A DNA stretch of 64,000 nt, taken from the NCBI GenBank assembly GCA_016195265.1, contig JACPZW010000068.1, positions 1-64,000 on the forward strand, in the 5' to 3' direction. Under the pieces are notes generated by a model. That model made no database searches, was not told the origin of the DNA, and was given only the letters and a program-made list of their open reading frames with translations. The first letter of the stretch is position 1. Each line of letters starts with the position of its first letter. The translations under genes and the position numbers were made by a program. The stretch comes from Acidobacteriota bacterium. GTDB taxonomy: Bacteria; Acidobacteriota; Vicinamibacteria; Vicinamibacterales; CAVVIG01. Of this stretch, positions 19,197 through 63,194 are shown piece after piece.

Positions 19197-19651
19197 GGCG
19201 GTCGCCTCCAAAGTACGTTCTCGACACGCACCTCTTCATCGACGGCTTCCGCGATCGCGAGGCGAACGCGGCGCTGCAGCGCTTCCATTCCGGCTTCGCG
19301 CCGTTCGAGTACTTGAGCGTAGTCGTCGCGCAGGAACTGCGCGCCGGCATCCGTCGCGCAGTGGATCTTCGGTTGCTGGAGCGCCTGGTGCTCGACGTGT
19401 TCGAACGGACAGGGAGGACGATTGTCCCGTCGGCAGGGGCGTGGTTGAAGTCGGGCGACGTCCTCTCAGAGATGGCGCGCAAAGACGGACTCGAAGTCGG
19501 GCGCGTGTCCAAGGCGTTCGCGAACGACGTGCTGCTCGCGCTGTCGTGCCGCGAGGCGGGGTGCATCCTCGTGACGGACAACGCGCGCGATTTTCAGCGC
19601 ATTCGCGCGCACGTCGCCTTCGAGTTCACGAAACCGTGGCCTGGGACCTAA
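19193..19651 (+). CDS. VapC-like PIN-domain ribonuclease toxin
   Basis: A 152-residue PIN protein. The acidic residues of the metal site are seen at YVLDTHLFIDGF (first Asp), VVAQELRAG (Glu), KAFANDVLLALSCREAG (Asp) and LVTDNARDF (Asp), the expected VapC pattern. VapC toxins cut structured RNA such as initiator tRNA or rRNA loops. The GTG start at 19193 overlaps the antitoxin stop (GTGA), which implies translational coupling. The gene ends directly before a palindromic repeat. Confidence 0.85.
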   Translation: MRRSPPKYVLDTHLFIDGFRDREANAALQRFHSGFAPFEYLSVVVAQELRAGIRRAVDLRLLERLVLDVFERTGRTIVPSAGAWLKSGDVLSEMARKDGLEVGRVSKAFANDVLLALSCREAGCILVTDNARDFQRIRAHVAFEFTKPWPGT

Positions 19652-19728
19652 AGCGTTTTCACCGCGGCCCGGCGGGTCCAAAAAGGACCCGCCCTACGTA
19701 CTACAGCGATCTGCAAACCGCTCTAACC
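19652..19728. repeat. composite palindromic repeat, partial copy
   Basis: One hairpin, GGCGGGTCC-AAAAA-GGACCCGCC (19671-19693), followed by CCTACGTACTACAGCGATC and TGCAAACCGCTCTA, the same arm as at 41923-41945 and, inverted, at 2020-2050. It lies between the convergent toxin gene and the molybdenum hydroxylase gene. Confidence 0.85.
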
Positions 19729-28202: not shown

Positions 28203-28305
28203 TGCCGGGTCCAAAAGGACCCGGCCTACGTGGTTGGCGGTAACTCCGCCGGGTCCAAAAGGACCCGGCCTACAAACCGGGTCCGAAAGAACCCGGCCTA
28301 CGTGA
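28203..28305. repeat. three tandem GCCGGGTCC palindromes
   Basis: Hairpins at 28204-28225, 28248-28269 and 28276-28297, each GCCGGGTCC-NNNN-GGACCCGGC or a close variant, followed twice by CCTACGTG. They fill the gap between the cytochrome gene and the PQQ dehydrogenase gene and could attenuate transcription between them. Confidence 0.85.
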
Positions 28306-41090: not shown

Positions 41091-41816
41091 ATGAAGAGAA
41101 CAGAGCGGCGACATCTGAAGGAAAACGAGGTTCAGAATTTCGTGCGCGTGGCGCGCGAGATGTTCGAAACGCGTCGTGGCGAGAGCACGTTGGTCATCGG
41201 CCTGGTCGCGGCCCTGCTTCTGGGCGCCCTCGCGTATTACGGGTGGCGCGAGCACGTCCAGTCGCGCGCGACGGCGCTGCTGGCCGACGCGATGACCGTG
41301 CAGGACGCGCGCATCGGGCCGCCGCCGGCGCCGGGCACGCCGGCCAACGGCATCTATTTCCCGACTGAGCGCGAGCGCGCGCAAGCGGCGCTGACCAAGT
41401 TCAAGATCGCCGCGGACGCGTATCCGTCCGCAGACGCGGGCATCTACGCGCGCTATCAGCTGGCGTCGACCTACATGACGCTCGGCCAGCCGGCGCAGGC
41501 GGCGACGGCGTATCAGCAGGTGATCGACGCGGCGGGCACGGGCATCTACGGACAGATGGCGCGGCTCGGGCTCGCGGAGGCGCAGGCGCGCGCCGGCCAG
41601 TACGATCAGGCGATCAACACCTTCAAGGATCTCTCGCTGCGCAAGGACGGCCCGCTGCCGGTTGACGGGATTCTCATGCAGCTCGGCCGCGTGTATCTCA
41701 ACGCCGGTAAGCGTACGGAAGCGCAGCAGACCTTCAACCGCCTCGTGGACGAGTTCCCCGAGTCGCCGTTCACCGGCGACGCGCGCAAAGAGCTCGACAA
41801 CCTGAAGAAGATTTAG
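41091..41816 (+). CDS. YfgM-like TPR protein, membrane-anchored
   Basis: A 241-residue protein. A basic N-terminus is followed by one membrane helix (about residues 35-52, TLVIGLVAALLLGALAYY) and TPR repeats (KFKIAADAYPSADAGIYARYQLA, MARLGLAEAQARAGQYDQAI, RVYLNAGKRTEAQQTFNRLVDEFPESP). This layout is that of YfgM/TPR_21 proteins attached to the periplasmic face of the inner membrane, near SecYEG and BamB. The stop TAG is the first codon of a 31 bp direct repeat shared with the end of aguA. Confidence 0.83.
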   Translation: MKRTERRHLKENEVQNFVRVAREMFETRRGESTLVIGLVAALLLGALAYYGWREHVQSRATALLADAMTVQDARIGPPPAPGTPANGIYFPTERERAQAALTKFKIAADAYPSADAGIYARYQLASTYMTLGQPAQAATAYQQVIDAAGTGIYGQMARLGLAEAQARAGQYDQAINTFKDLSLRKDGPLPVDGILMQLGRVYLNAGKRTEAQQTFNRLVDEFPESPFTGDARKELDNLKKI

Positions 41817-41976
41817 ATCGCGGGCTCCTGCTGCGTCAGGCAGTCAGTACGTAGGCCGGGTCCTTTCGGACCCGGCTCGCAATCGCCGCCAGGCGGGTCC
41901 AAAAAAGGACCCGCCCTACGTACTACAGCGATCTGCAAACCGATCTAGATCGCGGGCTCCTGCTGCGTCAGGCAGT
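41814..41976. repeat. composite palindromic repeat flanked by a 31 bp direct repeat
   Basis: The insert at 41845-41945 holds two hairpins: GCCGGGTCC-TTTC-GGACCCGGC and GGCGGGTCC-AAAAAA-GGACCCGCC, with outer TACGTAG arms and TGCAAACCGATC at the right end. It is bracketed by identical 31-base copies (41814-41844 and 41946-41976; each begins TAGATCGCGGGC and ends GCGTCAGGCAGT). The right copy is the coding end of aguA (HCLTQQEPAI and stop); the left copy starts at the stop codon of the convergent TPR gene. This looks like an insertion with a long target duplication. Confidence 0.9.
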
Positions 41977-43009
41977 GGAGCGTGCCCAGCCCCCACACCA
42001 GATCGACCGCGTGGATGCCGACGATCCGGTGTCGCGGCATCAACTCGGCCAGCAGGTTCAGCGCGATCCGATCGTTCAGGTCGTTGAACGTGGGCACGAT
42101 CACCAATCCATTCGCGATATAGAAGTTGGCGTAGCTGGCCGGCAGGCGTTCGCCCGCCATCACGACCCGGCGCGGGTACGGCAGGCGGACGATCCGTAGC
42201 GGGCCGATCCCGGGATCGCGCGAGGCGGACTCGAGCCGGTGCAGGTTGTCGATCGACTTGGCGTGATTGTCATCGGTCGGATCGTCCTCGACGGCGAGCA
42301 CGACCACATCAGGCGCGACGAAGCGCGCAATGTCGTCCACGTGGCCGTGCGTGTCGTCGCCGACGCAGCCCTCGCCGAGCCAGATCGTGCGCCGCACGCC
42401 AAGCCAGTCGCGGAAGATCTGCTCGTAGCCCTCCCGCGAGAGTCCCGGGTTTCTGACCTGCACGCTGCTCAGCAGCCATTCTTCCGTCGTCAGCAGCAGC
42501 CCGCGGCCGTTGACCTCGATCCCGCCGCCTTCGAGGACGACCCGCTCACCGTTGTCGGTGCGGCGGGGCTCGAGACGCGGGTGGCCGGTGATCCCGGCGA
42601 TGGCCCGGCCGATGTTCGCGTCCTGCTCCCAGTTCGAATACTTCGCCCAGCCGCTGAAGCCCCAGTTGACGAGCGACAGTTTCCCGTCGGCGCCGAGGAC
42701 GCCGGTCGGCGCGCTGTCGCGCAGCCAGGCCCGGTCGAGCGGGACGAGATGCAGCCGGACGCGGTCCTTCCGCACGTCGTGCGCCGCGAGGATCTTCTGG
42801 GCGCTCTCGCGCACGGCGTCCGAATTGCAGAGGATCTCGACCGGTTCGACGCCGGCGAGCGCGCGGGCGATCTCGGCGTACACCCACGGAATCGGCTCGA
42901 GCTTGCCCGGCCAGTCCGGTTCGAAATGCGGCCACGCGATCCACGTGGCGCGGTGCGGTTCCCATTCGGCCGGCATCCGCCGGCGGGGAAGCTGGGCGGG
43001 GTCGGTCAT
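41945..43009 (-). CDS. aguA: agmatine deiminase
   Basis: A 354-residue peptidyl-arginine-deiminase-family enzyme that converts agmatine to N-carbamoylputrescine. Family blocks: MPAEWEPHRATWIAWP, DRAWLRDSAPTGVL, VLEGGGIEVNGRGLLLTTEEWLL, GDDTHGHVDDIARFV and the catalytic Cys in LGTLHCLTQQEPA close to the C-terminus. The start overlaps the stop of the amidase gene by one base (TGATG). Its last 10 codons are the source of the 31 bp duplication found next to the TPR gene. Confidence 0.94.
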   Translation of the reverse strand: MTDPAQLPRRRMPAEWEPHRATWIAWPHFEPDWPGKLEPIPWVYAEIARALAGVEPVEILCNSDAVRESAQKILAAHDVRKDRVRLHLVPLDRAWLRDSAPTGVLGADGKLSLVNWGFSGWAKYSNWEQDANIGRAIAGITGHPRLEPRRTDNGERVVLEGGGIEVNGRGLLLTTEEWLLSSVQVRNPGLSREGYEQIFRDWLGVRRTIWLGEGCVGDDTHGHVDDIARFVAPDVVVLAVEDDPTDDNHAKSIDNLHRLESASRDPGIGPLRIVRLPYPRRVVMAGERLPASYANFYIANGLVIVPTFNDLNDRIALNLLAELMPRHRIVGIHAVDLVWGLGTLHCLTQQEPAI

Positions 43010-48065: not shown

Positions 48066-49641
48066 TTTTCAGGAAGATGAAGTCCAGCGTGGGCAGGAGG
48101 GTGAAACCGGTCAGCGTGCGCTGCGCGACGATGACATTCGTCTTGCACCAGAGGCTGATGTAGGGCACGTCAAGGGCGACCCGCCGCTGGACATCGCTGT
48201 ACATCGCGCGCGCCATGCGCACATCGTCCTGCGCCGCCGCACGGTCGAGTACCTGGTCGATGTAGGCGTCGTGGAAGAAGCCGCGATTGAACCCGTTCGG
48301 CGGCACCTGCGCCGAATGGAACACGCGGCGGAGGATGTCCGGATCCGCCACGGCGCCGCCGACCCATTGCAGCGTGAAGACCTGAAAGTTGCCCTTCAGC
48401 ACGTCGGCGTAGAACGTCGCGAACTCGTAGGTGCGGATGTCGAGTGCGATCCCGACGTCGCGCAGGTTCTGCTGGATGACGGATGACTGCAGCCGGTTGA
48501 ATTCCAGGTTCGAGACTTTCAGCGTCAGGCGGAATCGCACGCCATCGACCGCCGGATGTCCGGCCTCGTCGAGCAGGACGCGCGCCTTCGCGGGATCGTA
48601 TGCGTACGTCGCAACACCGGGCTCGAATGCCCACGACATCGGCGGCAGCATGCCCGCGGCGGGAATCGCCAGCCCGCGCCGGAGGTGCGTGATGATCGCG
48701 TCACGGTCAATCGCGTACGCGATCGCCTGACGGACGCGGACGTCCTGCAGGATCGGGTCGCGCAAATTCACGCCGATGTACTGATAGTCGGTGCCGGCCG
48801 ACTTCACGAGCTGCAGCCGCGGGTCCTGTCCGAGCTGATACACAATATCGGGCGCGAGGTCGTTGATGACGACGTCGATCGTGCCCTTGCGCAGTTCGAG
48901 GCCGCGCATGATGTCGTCCGGCACGACGCGGAGGACGACGCCGTCGTTGGCCGGCCGCCCGCCGAAGTACTCCTTGAACGTCTCGAGCTCGACGCGGTCG
49001 TCCACGACGTTCTTCACGAAGCGATACGGTCCAGTGCCGACGGGATGCTCGCGAAACGCCGGGCCGGCACCGTCAGGCACGATCGGCAGCACGAGCTGCG
49101 CCGGAAACGATCCAAAAGGCTCTTTGAGCGTAAAGACGACGGTGTCGCGATCGCGCGCGTCAACCGCCTGGACCATCCGGTACGCGCCTTTGCGGGGCGA
49201 GAGCAGCTTCGGATCGAGCAGGCTGCGGAACGTGTAGACGACATCGGCCGACGTCAGCTCGTGGCCATCGTGAAACCGCACGCCCCGGCGCAGCGTCGCG
49301 ACCCACGTCGTTGGATCCGGATGGTCGAGCCGTTCCGCGAGATCCGGCACGACCTGCAGGTGTTCGTCGAGGGTCATCAGGTTATTGAAGACGAGCTGCG
49401 AGATCTTGCCGGACACATCGTCGGTGCCGATGCGCGGGTCGAGATTGTTGGGGCCGCTCGTCACGCCGACCACGATGACGTTGGGGTTGTCGGTCGGCCG
49501 GTGGAGGCAGCCGCTCGCGAGGAGCGCGAGTGCGCAGAGCACTGCGGTTGTAGGCCGGGGCCTTTGGACCCGGCACTGCTCAGGCGGGTCCGAAAGGACC
49601 CGCCCTACACCCGCGGGTCTCACGACATCCGCTGGCCTCAC
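48025..49641 (-). CDS. ABC transporter substrate-binding lipoprotein, peptide type (SBP_bac_5)
   Basis: A solute-binding protein of about 500 mature residues. The lipobox is LLASGC, followed by VGVTSGPNNLDPRIGTDDVSGKISQLVFNNL, typical of peptide/nickel-binding DppA/OppA-like proteins, then LRRGVRFHDGHELTSADVVYTF. The start is uncertain. A GTG at 49641 overlaps the mutS stop (GTGA), but then the first 25 or so residues come from a palindromic repeat (49550-49610); the GTG right at LCALALLASGC gives a bare leader. No permease or ATPase genes adjoin, so it may work with an unlinked transporter. Confidence 0.85.
   Translation of the reverse strand: MRPADVVRPAGVGRVLSDPPEQCRVQRPRPTTAVLCALALLASGCLHRPTDNPNVIVVGVTSGPNNLDPRIGTDDVSGKISQLVFNNLMTLDEHLQVVPDLAERLDHPDPTTWVATLRRGVRFHDGHELTSADVVYTFRSLLDPKLLSPRKGAYRMVQAVDARDRDTVVFTLKEPFGSFPAQLVLPIVPDGAGPAFREHPVGTGPYRFVKNVVDDRVELETFKEYFGGRPANDGVVLRVVPDDIMRGLELRKGTIDVVINDLAPDIVYQLGQDPRLQLVKSAGTDYQYIGVNLRDPILQDVRVRQAIAYAIDRDAIITHLRRGLAIPAAGMLPPMSWAFEPGVATYAYDPAKARVLLDEAGHPAVDGVRFRLTLKVSNLEFNRLQSSVIQQNLRDVGIALDIRTYEFATFYADVLKGNFQVFTLQWVGGAVADPDILRRVFHSAQVPPNGFNRGFFHDAYIDQVLDRAAAQDDVRMARAMYSDVQRRVALDVPYISLWCKTNVIVAQRTLTGFTLLPTLDFIFLKNVARTPADQRAAR
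49550..49610. repeat. paired palindromic repeat at the lipoprotein start
   Basis: Two opposed hairpins: TAGGCCGGGGCC-TTT-GGACCCGGC-type (49551-49574) and GGCGGGTCC-GAAA-GGACCCGCC (49583-49604), with outward TGTAG/CTACA arms. This is the same composite design as at 2020 and 41845. It lies where the lipoprotein leader is translated, just after mutS. Confidence 0.8.
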
Positions 49642-54485: not shown

Positions 54486-55319
54486 ATGTTGAATCATCAG
54501 GAAGGCCGGCTCCGCTTTCTGCGGCGCGCCACGGATCGCCCGCGGCCGCGATTCCGCCGCGGCGTGTACCTGCTGCCCAGCCTGTTGACGATGGCGCACA
54601 TGTTCTGCGGCTACGCGTGCGTCGTGTACGCGATGCGCGGTGAATACGACACGGCCGCGCCGTTCATCGGCTTCGCGATCGTGCTGGACGTGCTGGACGG
54701 CCGCATCGCGCGGATGACGGGCACGGCCAGCGCGTTCGGTGCGGAGTTCGATTCGCTCGCCGACATCATCTCGTTCGGCATGGCGCCGGCGATTCTGTCG
54801 TTCCAGTGGGGCCTGTCGTCGCTGGGCCGTCTGGGCTGGGCGGCGGGATTCCTGTACGTCGCGGCGGCCGCGATGCGGCTCGCGCGCTTCAACATTCAGA
54901 CCGCCGGTGGCGGGGACAAGCGCTACTTCGTCGGCATGCCGAGTCCGGCGGCGGCGGCGATTCCCGCGGCGACGGTGTTCGCCTACCCGTGGGGCCTGTA
55001 CGACTATCGCGAAGCGCTGCCGGCGCTCGCCATGGTCCTGGTCCCGGCCGTGCTCATGGTGAGCACGATCCGGTTCCGCTCGTTCAAGAACCTCGATTCG
55101 AAAAACCGGCGCCCGTACACCGTCCTCCTCTTCGTCGCGGCGGCCATCATGCTGATTGCGACGCACCCGCGCATTGCGCTCGTCGTCCTCGCCTACGGCT
55201 ACCTGTCGTCCGCGTTCATCGGGATGGCCGTCACGCGCTTCCGGCATCGCGGCGGCCACGGGGCCGACGCCGAGCAGCCAGCGGCCGACGACCCGCCACG
55301 CGACAGCGCCGCCCGTTAG
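54486..55319 (+). CDS. pssA: CDP-diacylglycerol-serine O-phosphatidyltransferase
   Basis: A 277-residue polytopic enzyme joining CDP-diacylglycerol and serine. The CDP-alcohol phosphotransferase motif is complete: D-G-x2-A-R-x8-G-x3-D-x3-D, seen in VLDGRIARM and SAFGAEFDSLADIIS. About seven membrane helices. The stop codon TAG is also the first three bases of a palindromic repeat (TAGAGCGGCTTTC). Confidence 0.94.
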   Translation: MLNHQEGRLRFLRRATDRPRPRFRRGVYLLPSLLTMAHMFCGYACVVYAMRGEYDTAAPFIGFAIVLDVLDGRIARMTGTASAFGAEFDSLADIISFGMAPAILSFQWGLSSLGRLGWAAGFLYVAAAAMRLARFNIQTAGGGDKRYFVGMPSPAAAAIPAATVFAYPWGLYDYREALPALAMVLVPAVLMVSTIRFRSFKNLDSKNRRPYTVLLFVAAAIMLIATHPRIALVVLAYGYLSSAFIGMAVTRFRHRGGHGADAEQPAADDPPRDSAAR

Positions 55320-55434
55320 AGCGGCTTTCACAACGGCGTAGCGGTACGTAGGCCGGGTCCTTTCGGACCCGGGTGATGGGAAATAAGTGTGAAGTCTGAA
55401 GGCAGAAGTCTGAAGGAGAACTTCGGCTCAGACT
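55317..55434. repeat. composite palindromic repeat and AAGTCTGAAG direct/inverted repeats
   Basis: The left part (55317-55375) is the TAGAGCGG-TTTC-ACAAC-GCGTAG arm plus CCGGGTCC-TTTC-GGACCCGG (55353-55372), an inverted match to 2089-2146. The right part (about 55391-55455) has AAGTCTGAAG twice and CAGACTTCAGAC twice inverted, and could form a long hairpin. It enters the end of the kinase gene, whose last residues ESLKSQV are encoded by this repeat. Confidence 0.8.

Positions 55435-61566: not shown

Positions 61567-63194
<1,628 letters not shown>

Follow-up and report, generated by a model that had tools for sequence, protein, structure and literature searches.

A duplicated aguA end beside a truncated REPIN-bearing element in an Acidobacteriota genome: a possible template-switch scar

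In the 64-kb stretch of Acidobacteriota DNA analysed here (the window), the end of the agmatine deiminase gene aguA is present twice, once on each side of a truncated palindromic element. The duplication is real, derived and tied to the element. It is a minority aberration and not the usual route by which this element family spreads. We tentatively read it as a template-switch scar, in which a composite of a REPIN and a MITE, after a normal insertion at CTAG, may have exchanged one of its arms for flanking sequence; the probability given to this reading falls a little short of even. Throughout, G000 is the source genome and other G numbers are relatives; L001 is the window copy of the element and other L numbers are other loci.

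Results

Duplication of the aguA end around the element

The sequence TAGATCGCGGGCTCCTGCTGCGTCAGGCAGT was found twice in the window, identical over 31 bp, at positions 41814-41844 and 41946-41976, as the first-pass annotation had reported. The two copies start 132 bp apart, with 101 bp between them. When one mismatch is allowed, the repeat lengthens to 35 bp, comprising 41810-41844 (GATTTAG...) and 41942-41976 (GATCTAG...). In 239 kb of G000, the only non-REP spaced direct repeats of at least 25 bp, at an offset of 60-400, were those of L001 and of L014, a second copy described below. At random control sites, 5 of 600 scored at least 14 and the best scored 26, compared with 32 for the L001 repeat, a level that chance would not be expected to give. 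The features of the locus are as follows.

41091-41816, forward strand: gene for a TPR-repeat protein (TPR_6/TPR_21, profile matches), the convergent neighbour of aguA
41810-41844, forward strand: left (derived) copy of the duplication, GATTTAGATCGCGGGCTCCTGCTGCGTCAGGCAGT, with its exact part at 41814-41844; it fills the place of the missing C arm, and the sequence is single copy in eight relatives
41845-41923, no strand assigned: REPIN core, an inverted pair of GTAG-tagged REPs closed by GTACGTAG/CTACGTAC; the same hairpins flank the RAYT gene
41851-41876, forward strand: REP 1, GTAG followed by GCCGGGTCC-TTTC-GGACCCGGC, as read from the sequence
41892-41919, reverse strand: REP 2, GTAG followed by GGCGGGTCC-TTTTTT-GGACCCGCC, likewise
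41924-41948, reverse strand: retained T arm, reverse complement CTAGATCGGTTTGCAGATCGCTGTA, family consensus CTAGAGCGGTTTGCAGATCGCTGTA, from family comparison
41942-41976, forward strand: right (ancestral) copy of the duplication, the aguA end, GATCTAGATCGCGGGCTCCTGCTGCGTCAGGCAGT, from sequence comparison and the relatives
41945-41948, no strand assigned: CTAG, element end and target site, containing the stop codon of aguA; in the ancestor the stops of the TPR gene and aguA probably overlapped here
41945-43009, reverse strand: aguA, agmatine deiminase (PAD_porph, profile matches)

The ends of both genes are intact. The stop codon of the TPR gene is the TAG at 41814-41816, which opens the left copy, and the earlier statement that this copy begins at the stop of the convergent gene was correct. 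The aguA stop is the CTA at 41945-41947, and the exact repeat begins one base within it; the left copy has TAA in the frame of aguA.

The element contains a GTAG-headed, GC-rich short hairpin (GTAGGCCGGGTCC-TTTC-GGACCCGGC) and its inverted partner, and such inverted pairs with GTAG heads characterise GTAG-type REPs and REPINs (PMC3116915, PMC3733652). The DNA between the two copies forms a single long hairpin in which the REP pairs with the inverted REP, at -32.4 kcal/mol (z -7.6); a search of Rfam gave sub-threshold matches only. The 101-bp unit of two hairpins that had been described at first proved to be the truncated form of a longer element, of about 130 bp, and to fold as one hairpin rather than two. 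The T arm is kept and ends at the CTAG at 41945-41948, and the C arm is absent, the left copy of the aguA end standing in its place. Two bases (CA) at the inner junction are explained by neither the flank nor the consensus arm.

Ancestral state of the junction

The aguA end is single in eight relatives, namely the same-genus G001 and G002 together with G022, G007, G025, G033, G031 and G029, and the left copy is therefore derived. A single ancestral copy, which the first-pass annotation had envisaged, is thus what the aguA-TPR junctions of the relatives indicate, each of the eight having one copy of the 31 bp rather than two. In G002 the gap between the two genes is about 25 bp and lacks the element. 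From the two copies in the window, the ancestral junction was probably GAAGAT-CTAG-ATCGCGGG, in which one CTAG carried the stops of both genes. In G001, the same gap holds a different palindromic insert made of repeated GTGACTGCGCT units (L032, G001 C172, before position 1501).

CTAG is scarce in this DNA. The 64-kb window contains 13, three of them ends of armed elements, compared with 192 expected from base composition (a 15-fold depletion) and about 41 by a Markov estimate.

The element family and its arms

G000 holds 75 match segments to the core, some of which are one place matched on both strands. Its single RAYT gene (one PF01797 match; NF047646 at 114 bits, cutoff 80) lies within an array of the same hairpins. 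At that locus (L086, C37), the gene (158 aa; C37:131631-132107 on the contig) occupies 1453-1929 between hairpin arrays at about 1050-1420 and 1933-2085, and the upstream units repeat at about 40 bp. Islands with exactly two hairpin halves are the commonest class (62 of 124), 41 having more and 21 having one; these were counted from island tables of G000 and the relatives, and the inverted orientation was seen in sequence comparison. Ordinary REPINs of this sequence, measuring about 57 bp from GTAG to CTAC, are common in the relatives.

A subfamily of about 23 copies in G000 has a longer core, and its complete members carry two extra arms, the T arm (CTAGAGCGGTTTGCAGATCGCTGTA) and the C arm (CTAGAGCGGTTTTCACAACGGCGTAGCG), which both terminate outward in CTAG, with a 12-bp inverted repeat. 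Terminal inverted repeats are present in L002-type copies (CTAGAGCGGTTT/AAACCGCTCTAG), the arms form the base of the single hairpin into which a full copy folds, and in several complete copies each end is a CTAG-like site. Comparison with empty sites near L005 and L010 confirms insertion; a clean duplication of 2-4 bp is not visible there.

Searches of 27 family and 162 order genomes for the arm patterns outside G000 returned none except a weak match with two mismatches in G161, and an exact 19-mer of the arm was absent from GTDB contigs. No autonomous IS with the arm ends was found in G000 or the 162 order genomes; two DDE transposase matches in G000 (PF01609, PF13358), considered as a partner, are without these ends. 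G025 holds comparable REPIN-in-arms composites (L187, L188/L234), and their arms resemble the end at L240, in another Acidobacteria MAG, which is adjacent to an IS5-family transposase (NF033580, 120 bits). MITEPsy1, tentatively attributed to IS5, has a length of 100 nt, 18-nt repeats and a 4-nt duplication of CTAG or YTAA (PMC3189936), and in one survey most IS427-group elements produced 2-bp duplications (PMC3281130). On these grounds the arms are read as putative IS5-type MITE ends, the link for the arms of G000 being by resemblance only. The composites of G025 and L175 (G016) have REPIN cores within other arms, for example TTAGGGCATGTTGCGAAATGAC. These loci suggest that REPIN-MITE composites may have arisen more than once.

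Long duplications at other copies

Examination of the other copies for long flanking duplications, as the first-pass annotation had proposed, yielded two more, at L014 and L011. The duplication thus recurs, and the link to the element that had been supposed is upheld. Neither arm is present at L014 (C23:71552), and the repeat on its flanks measures 39-44 bp, the range depending on the assignment of junction bases shared by both copies, with one mismatch and with CTAG in the middle of the repeat. The orthologous junction of L014, sought as an empty site, was not found in the seven relatives searched. L011 (C67) lacks the C arm in a mirror arrangement and has a diverged duplication of about 33 bp (26/33 identical); the orthologous place is single-copy in G001 and G002.

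All three duplications are at copies without a C arm; each duplicated block has CTAG at its edge or within it, and the junctions are at the base of the inner GTACGTAG palindrome. On the truncated sides, the sequence passes the target CTAG and continues through 12-30 bases of the opposite flank before joining the element at the base of that palindrome. The chance of a CTAG inside the L014 block is about 1%; given the scarcity of CTAG, its presence there is unlikely to be fortuitous, which favours insertion at CTAG first and a switch later.

Long duplications were found at 3 of the 23 armed copies, all among the 7 of 23 without a C arm. Hypergeometric values were 0.006 for armed copies and 0.02 for C-armless copies; they are post hoc, assume independent copies and are descriptive. 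No long duplication was detected at about 100 other REP islands, comprising the non-armed islands of G000 and ordinary REPINs in 62 islands scanned in relatives, or at complete two-armed copies, and a sensitive search for diverged duplications found none at L009, L012, L015-L020 or L029. A 20-bp gapped match at L013, consisting largely of the arm ends themselves, and a 14-bp match at L006 (p 0.027) were not counted. The expectation that the duplication was the best clue to the spread of the family was not supported: complete copies use CTAG-like sites with at most short duplications, and the long ones are confined to the three copies above.

Origin of the duplication

In the template-switch reading, a two-armed copy would have inserted at the CTAG where the stops of the TPR gene and aguA overlapped, duplicating just CTAG or TA. 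During a later round of replication, the inserted copy would have folded into a hairpin with the CTAG/arm pair at its base, and the nascent strand would have jumped this hairpin from CTAG to CTAG, as in the first step of precise excision. Once about 27 bases of aguA had been copied, the strand would have switched back, near a few bases that match, to the foot of the inner REPIN hairpin and completed the element, and a second copy of the aguA end would thereby have taken the place of the C arm. We infer the order of these events and the switching of the polymerase. Precise excision of the Tn5/Tn10 type occurs by replication slippage at inverted repeats. The first step proposed here is the same, in that the strand bypasses a hairpin whose base is flanked by short direct repeats; the slip differs in being incomplete and reversed, and would leave a duplication rather than an excision.

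Several observations point to this reading: complete copies have CTAG-like sites at both ends and at most short duplications, and the window copy has flank where the C arm should be; the aguA end is single in eight relatives, as is the mirror case at L011 in G001 and G002, and CTAG lies midway in the L014 duplication; the junctions fall at the GTACGTAG base of an element whose full copy forms a hairpin; and the three duplications all fall among the C-armless copies. There are three cases only, one of them diverged (26/33), and the strongest statistics were computed once the pattern was seen. Against the reading, L014 requires a switch on each side or another history, and the CA at the inner junction of the window copy is unaccounted for. 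The final sequence is the same whether the arm was lost after insertion or the inserted copy never had it.

The main rival is one-ended insertion with a long target duplication, which we regard as possible but doubtful. The T end would be joined to CTAG, replication would halt at the inner hairpin and switch back to the target some tens of bases away, and 33-44 bp would be duplicated on insertion. A single event then accounts for each of L001 and L011, the T end being precise and the C end variable, and both are explained as well as by an arm swap; L014 would be a two-junction templated insertion with two switches instead of four, and the single-mismatch reading of 35 bp takes in the odd base at the end of the T arm as well. 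Long and variable target duplications are described for restriction-modification genes, sequenced products led to the inference of one-ended insertion for IS1 (PMC3031569), and IS427-group elements can make replicative co-integrates (PMC3281130). However, the CTAG in the L014 duplication becomes a coincidence (about 1%), and the C-armless copies L009, L012, L016 and L029 have no duplication. If L014 is instead taken as the pure case, REPIN cores might have a real low-frequency transposition route of their own, in which the hairpin-bounded core is copied to new sites with target duplications of 33-44 bp, independently of the CTAG arms; we consider this unlikely.

The first-pass annotation had suggested either a replication slip, which fits best, or a staggered nick. 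In the latter, a transposase or the RAYT would cut at nicks 30-40 bp apart and the element would be placed between the filled-in ends, which agrees with the similar lengths of the duplications (35, about 33 and 39-44 bp). It is very unlikely, since about 100 other REP islands lack such duplications, the known IS200/IS605 relatives of RAYT do not generate larger target duplications (PMC2817692), the lengths vary among copies, and the replacement of the missing arm by flank and the placement at CTAG are left unexplained. The genome is metagenome-assembled, in 87 contigs, and the exact stretch of 31 bp is a common k-mer length, as might be expected of an assembly artefact at a palindromic repeat; the one-base difference between copies in L001 and in L014, the unequal lengths, the intact gene ends and the existence of an older, diverged case make an artefact highly improbable. 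That the two copies represent an ancient gene-end repeat with no connection to the element, which the annotation had named as a counter-reading, is contradicted by the single copy in eight relatives, and nothing was found in its favour; we give it almost no credence.

Relation to known systems

The family resembles REPINs and BIMEs, the REP doublets mobilised by RAYT (Bertels and Rainey 2011, PMC3116915), in its inverted GTAG hairpin pairs, its many copies and its one RAYT gene in an array of the same hairpins. It differs in the longer core of the G000 subfamily and in two outer CTAG-ended arms that are absent from the classic REPIN. Its size, short terminal inverted repeats and CTAG/YTAA-like target are those of an IS5-type MITE such as MITEPsy1 (PMC3189936), whereas the interior in G000 is a REPIN, no autonomous partner was found in G000, and the arms are species-restricted. 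Long, variable direct copies of the target, with single-copy empty sites in relatives, also mark the insertions with long target duplication of Nobusato et al. 2000 (cited in PMC3031569), and such single-copy sites are seen here for L001 and L011; the inserts described there are restriction-modification genes and not palindromic miniature elements, and here the duplication goes with the loss of one arm.

How REP sequences disseminate is an unresolved question (PMC8266576). REPINs inside MITE-like arms may offer REPs a second, transposase-driven way to move, and the duplications show that the elements also rearrange their own ends, probably in replication. Should one-ended insertion be correct, these three loci would instead illustrate, in nature, how a palindrome inserts with a long target duplication.

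Other copies in the window

A complete two-armed copy with CTAG at both ends lies at 2019-2146 and is an insertion relative to G001 and G002. An armed copy at 19650-19725 has an internal deletion on the C-arm side and ends in CTAA...CTCTAA, and a half element at 55316-55376 consists of the C arm and one REP, followed by unrelated sequence. The other REPs of the window form a three-REP cluster (28203-28301), a single REP (30374), a REPIN (49550-49608) and a direct pair (61925-61970).
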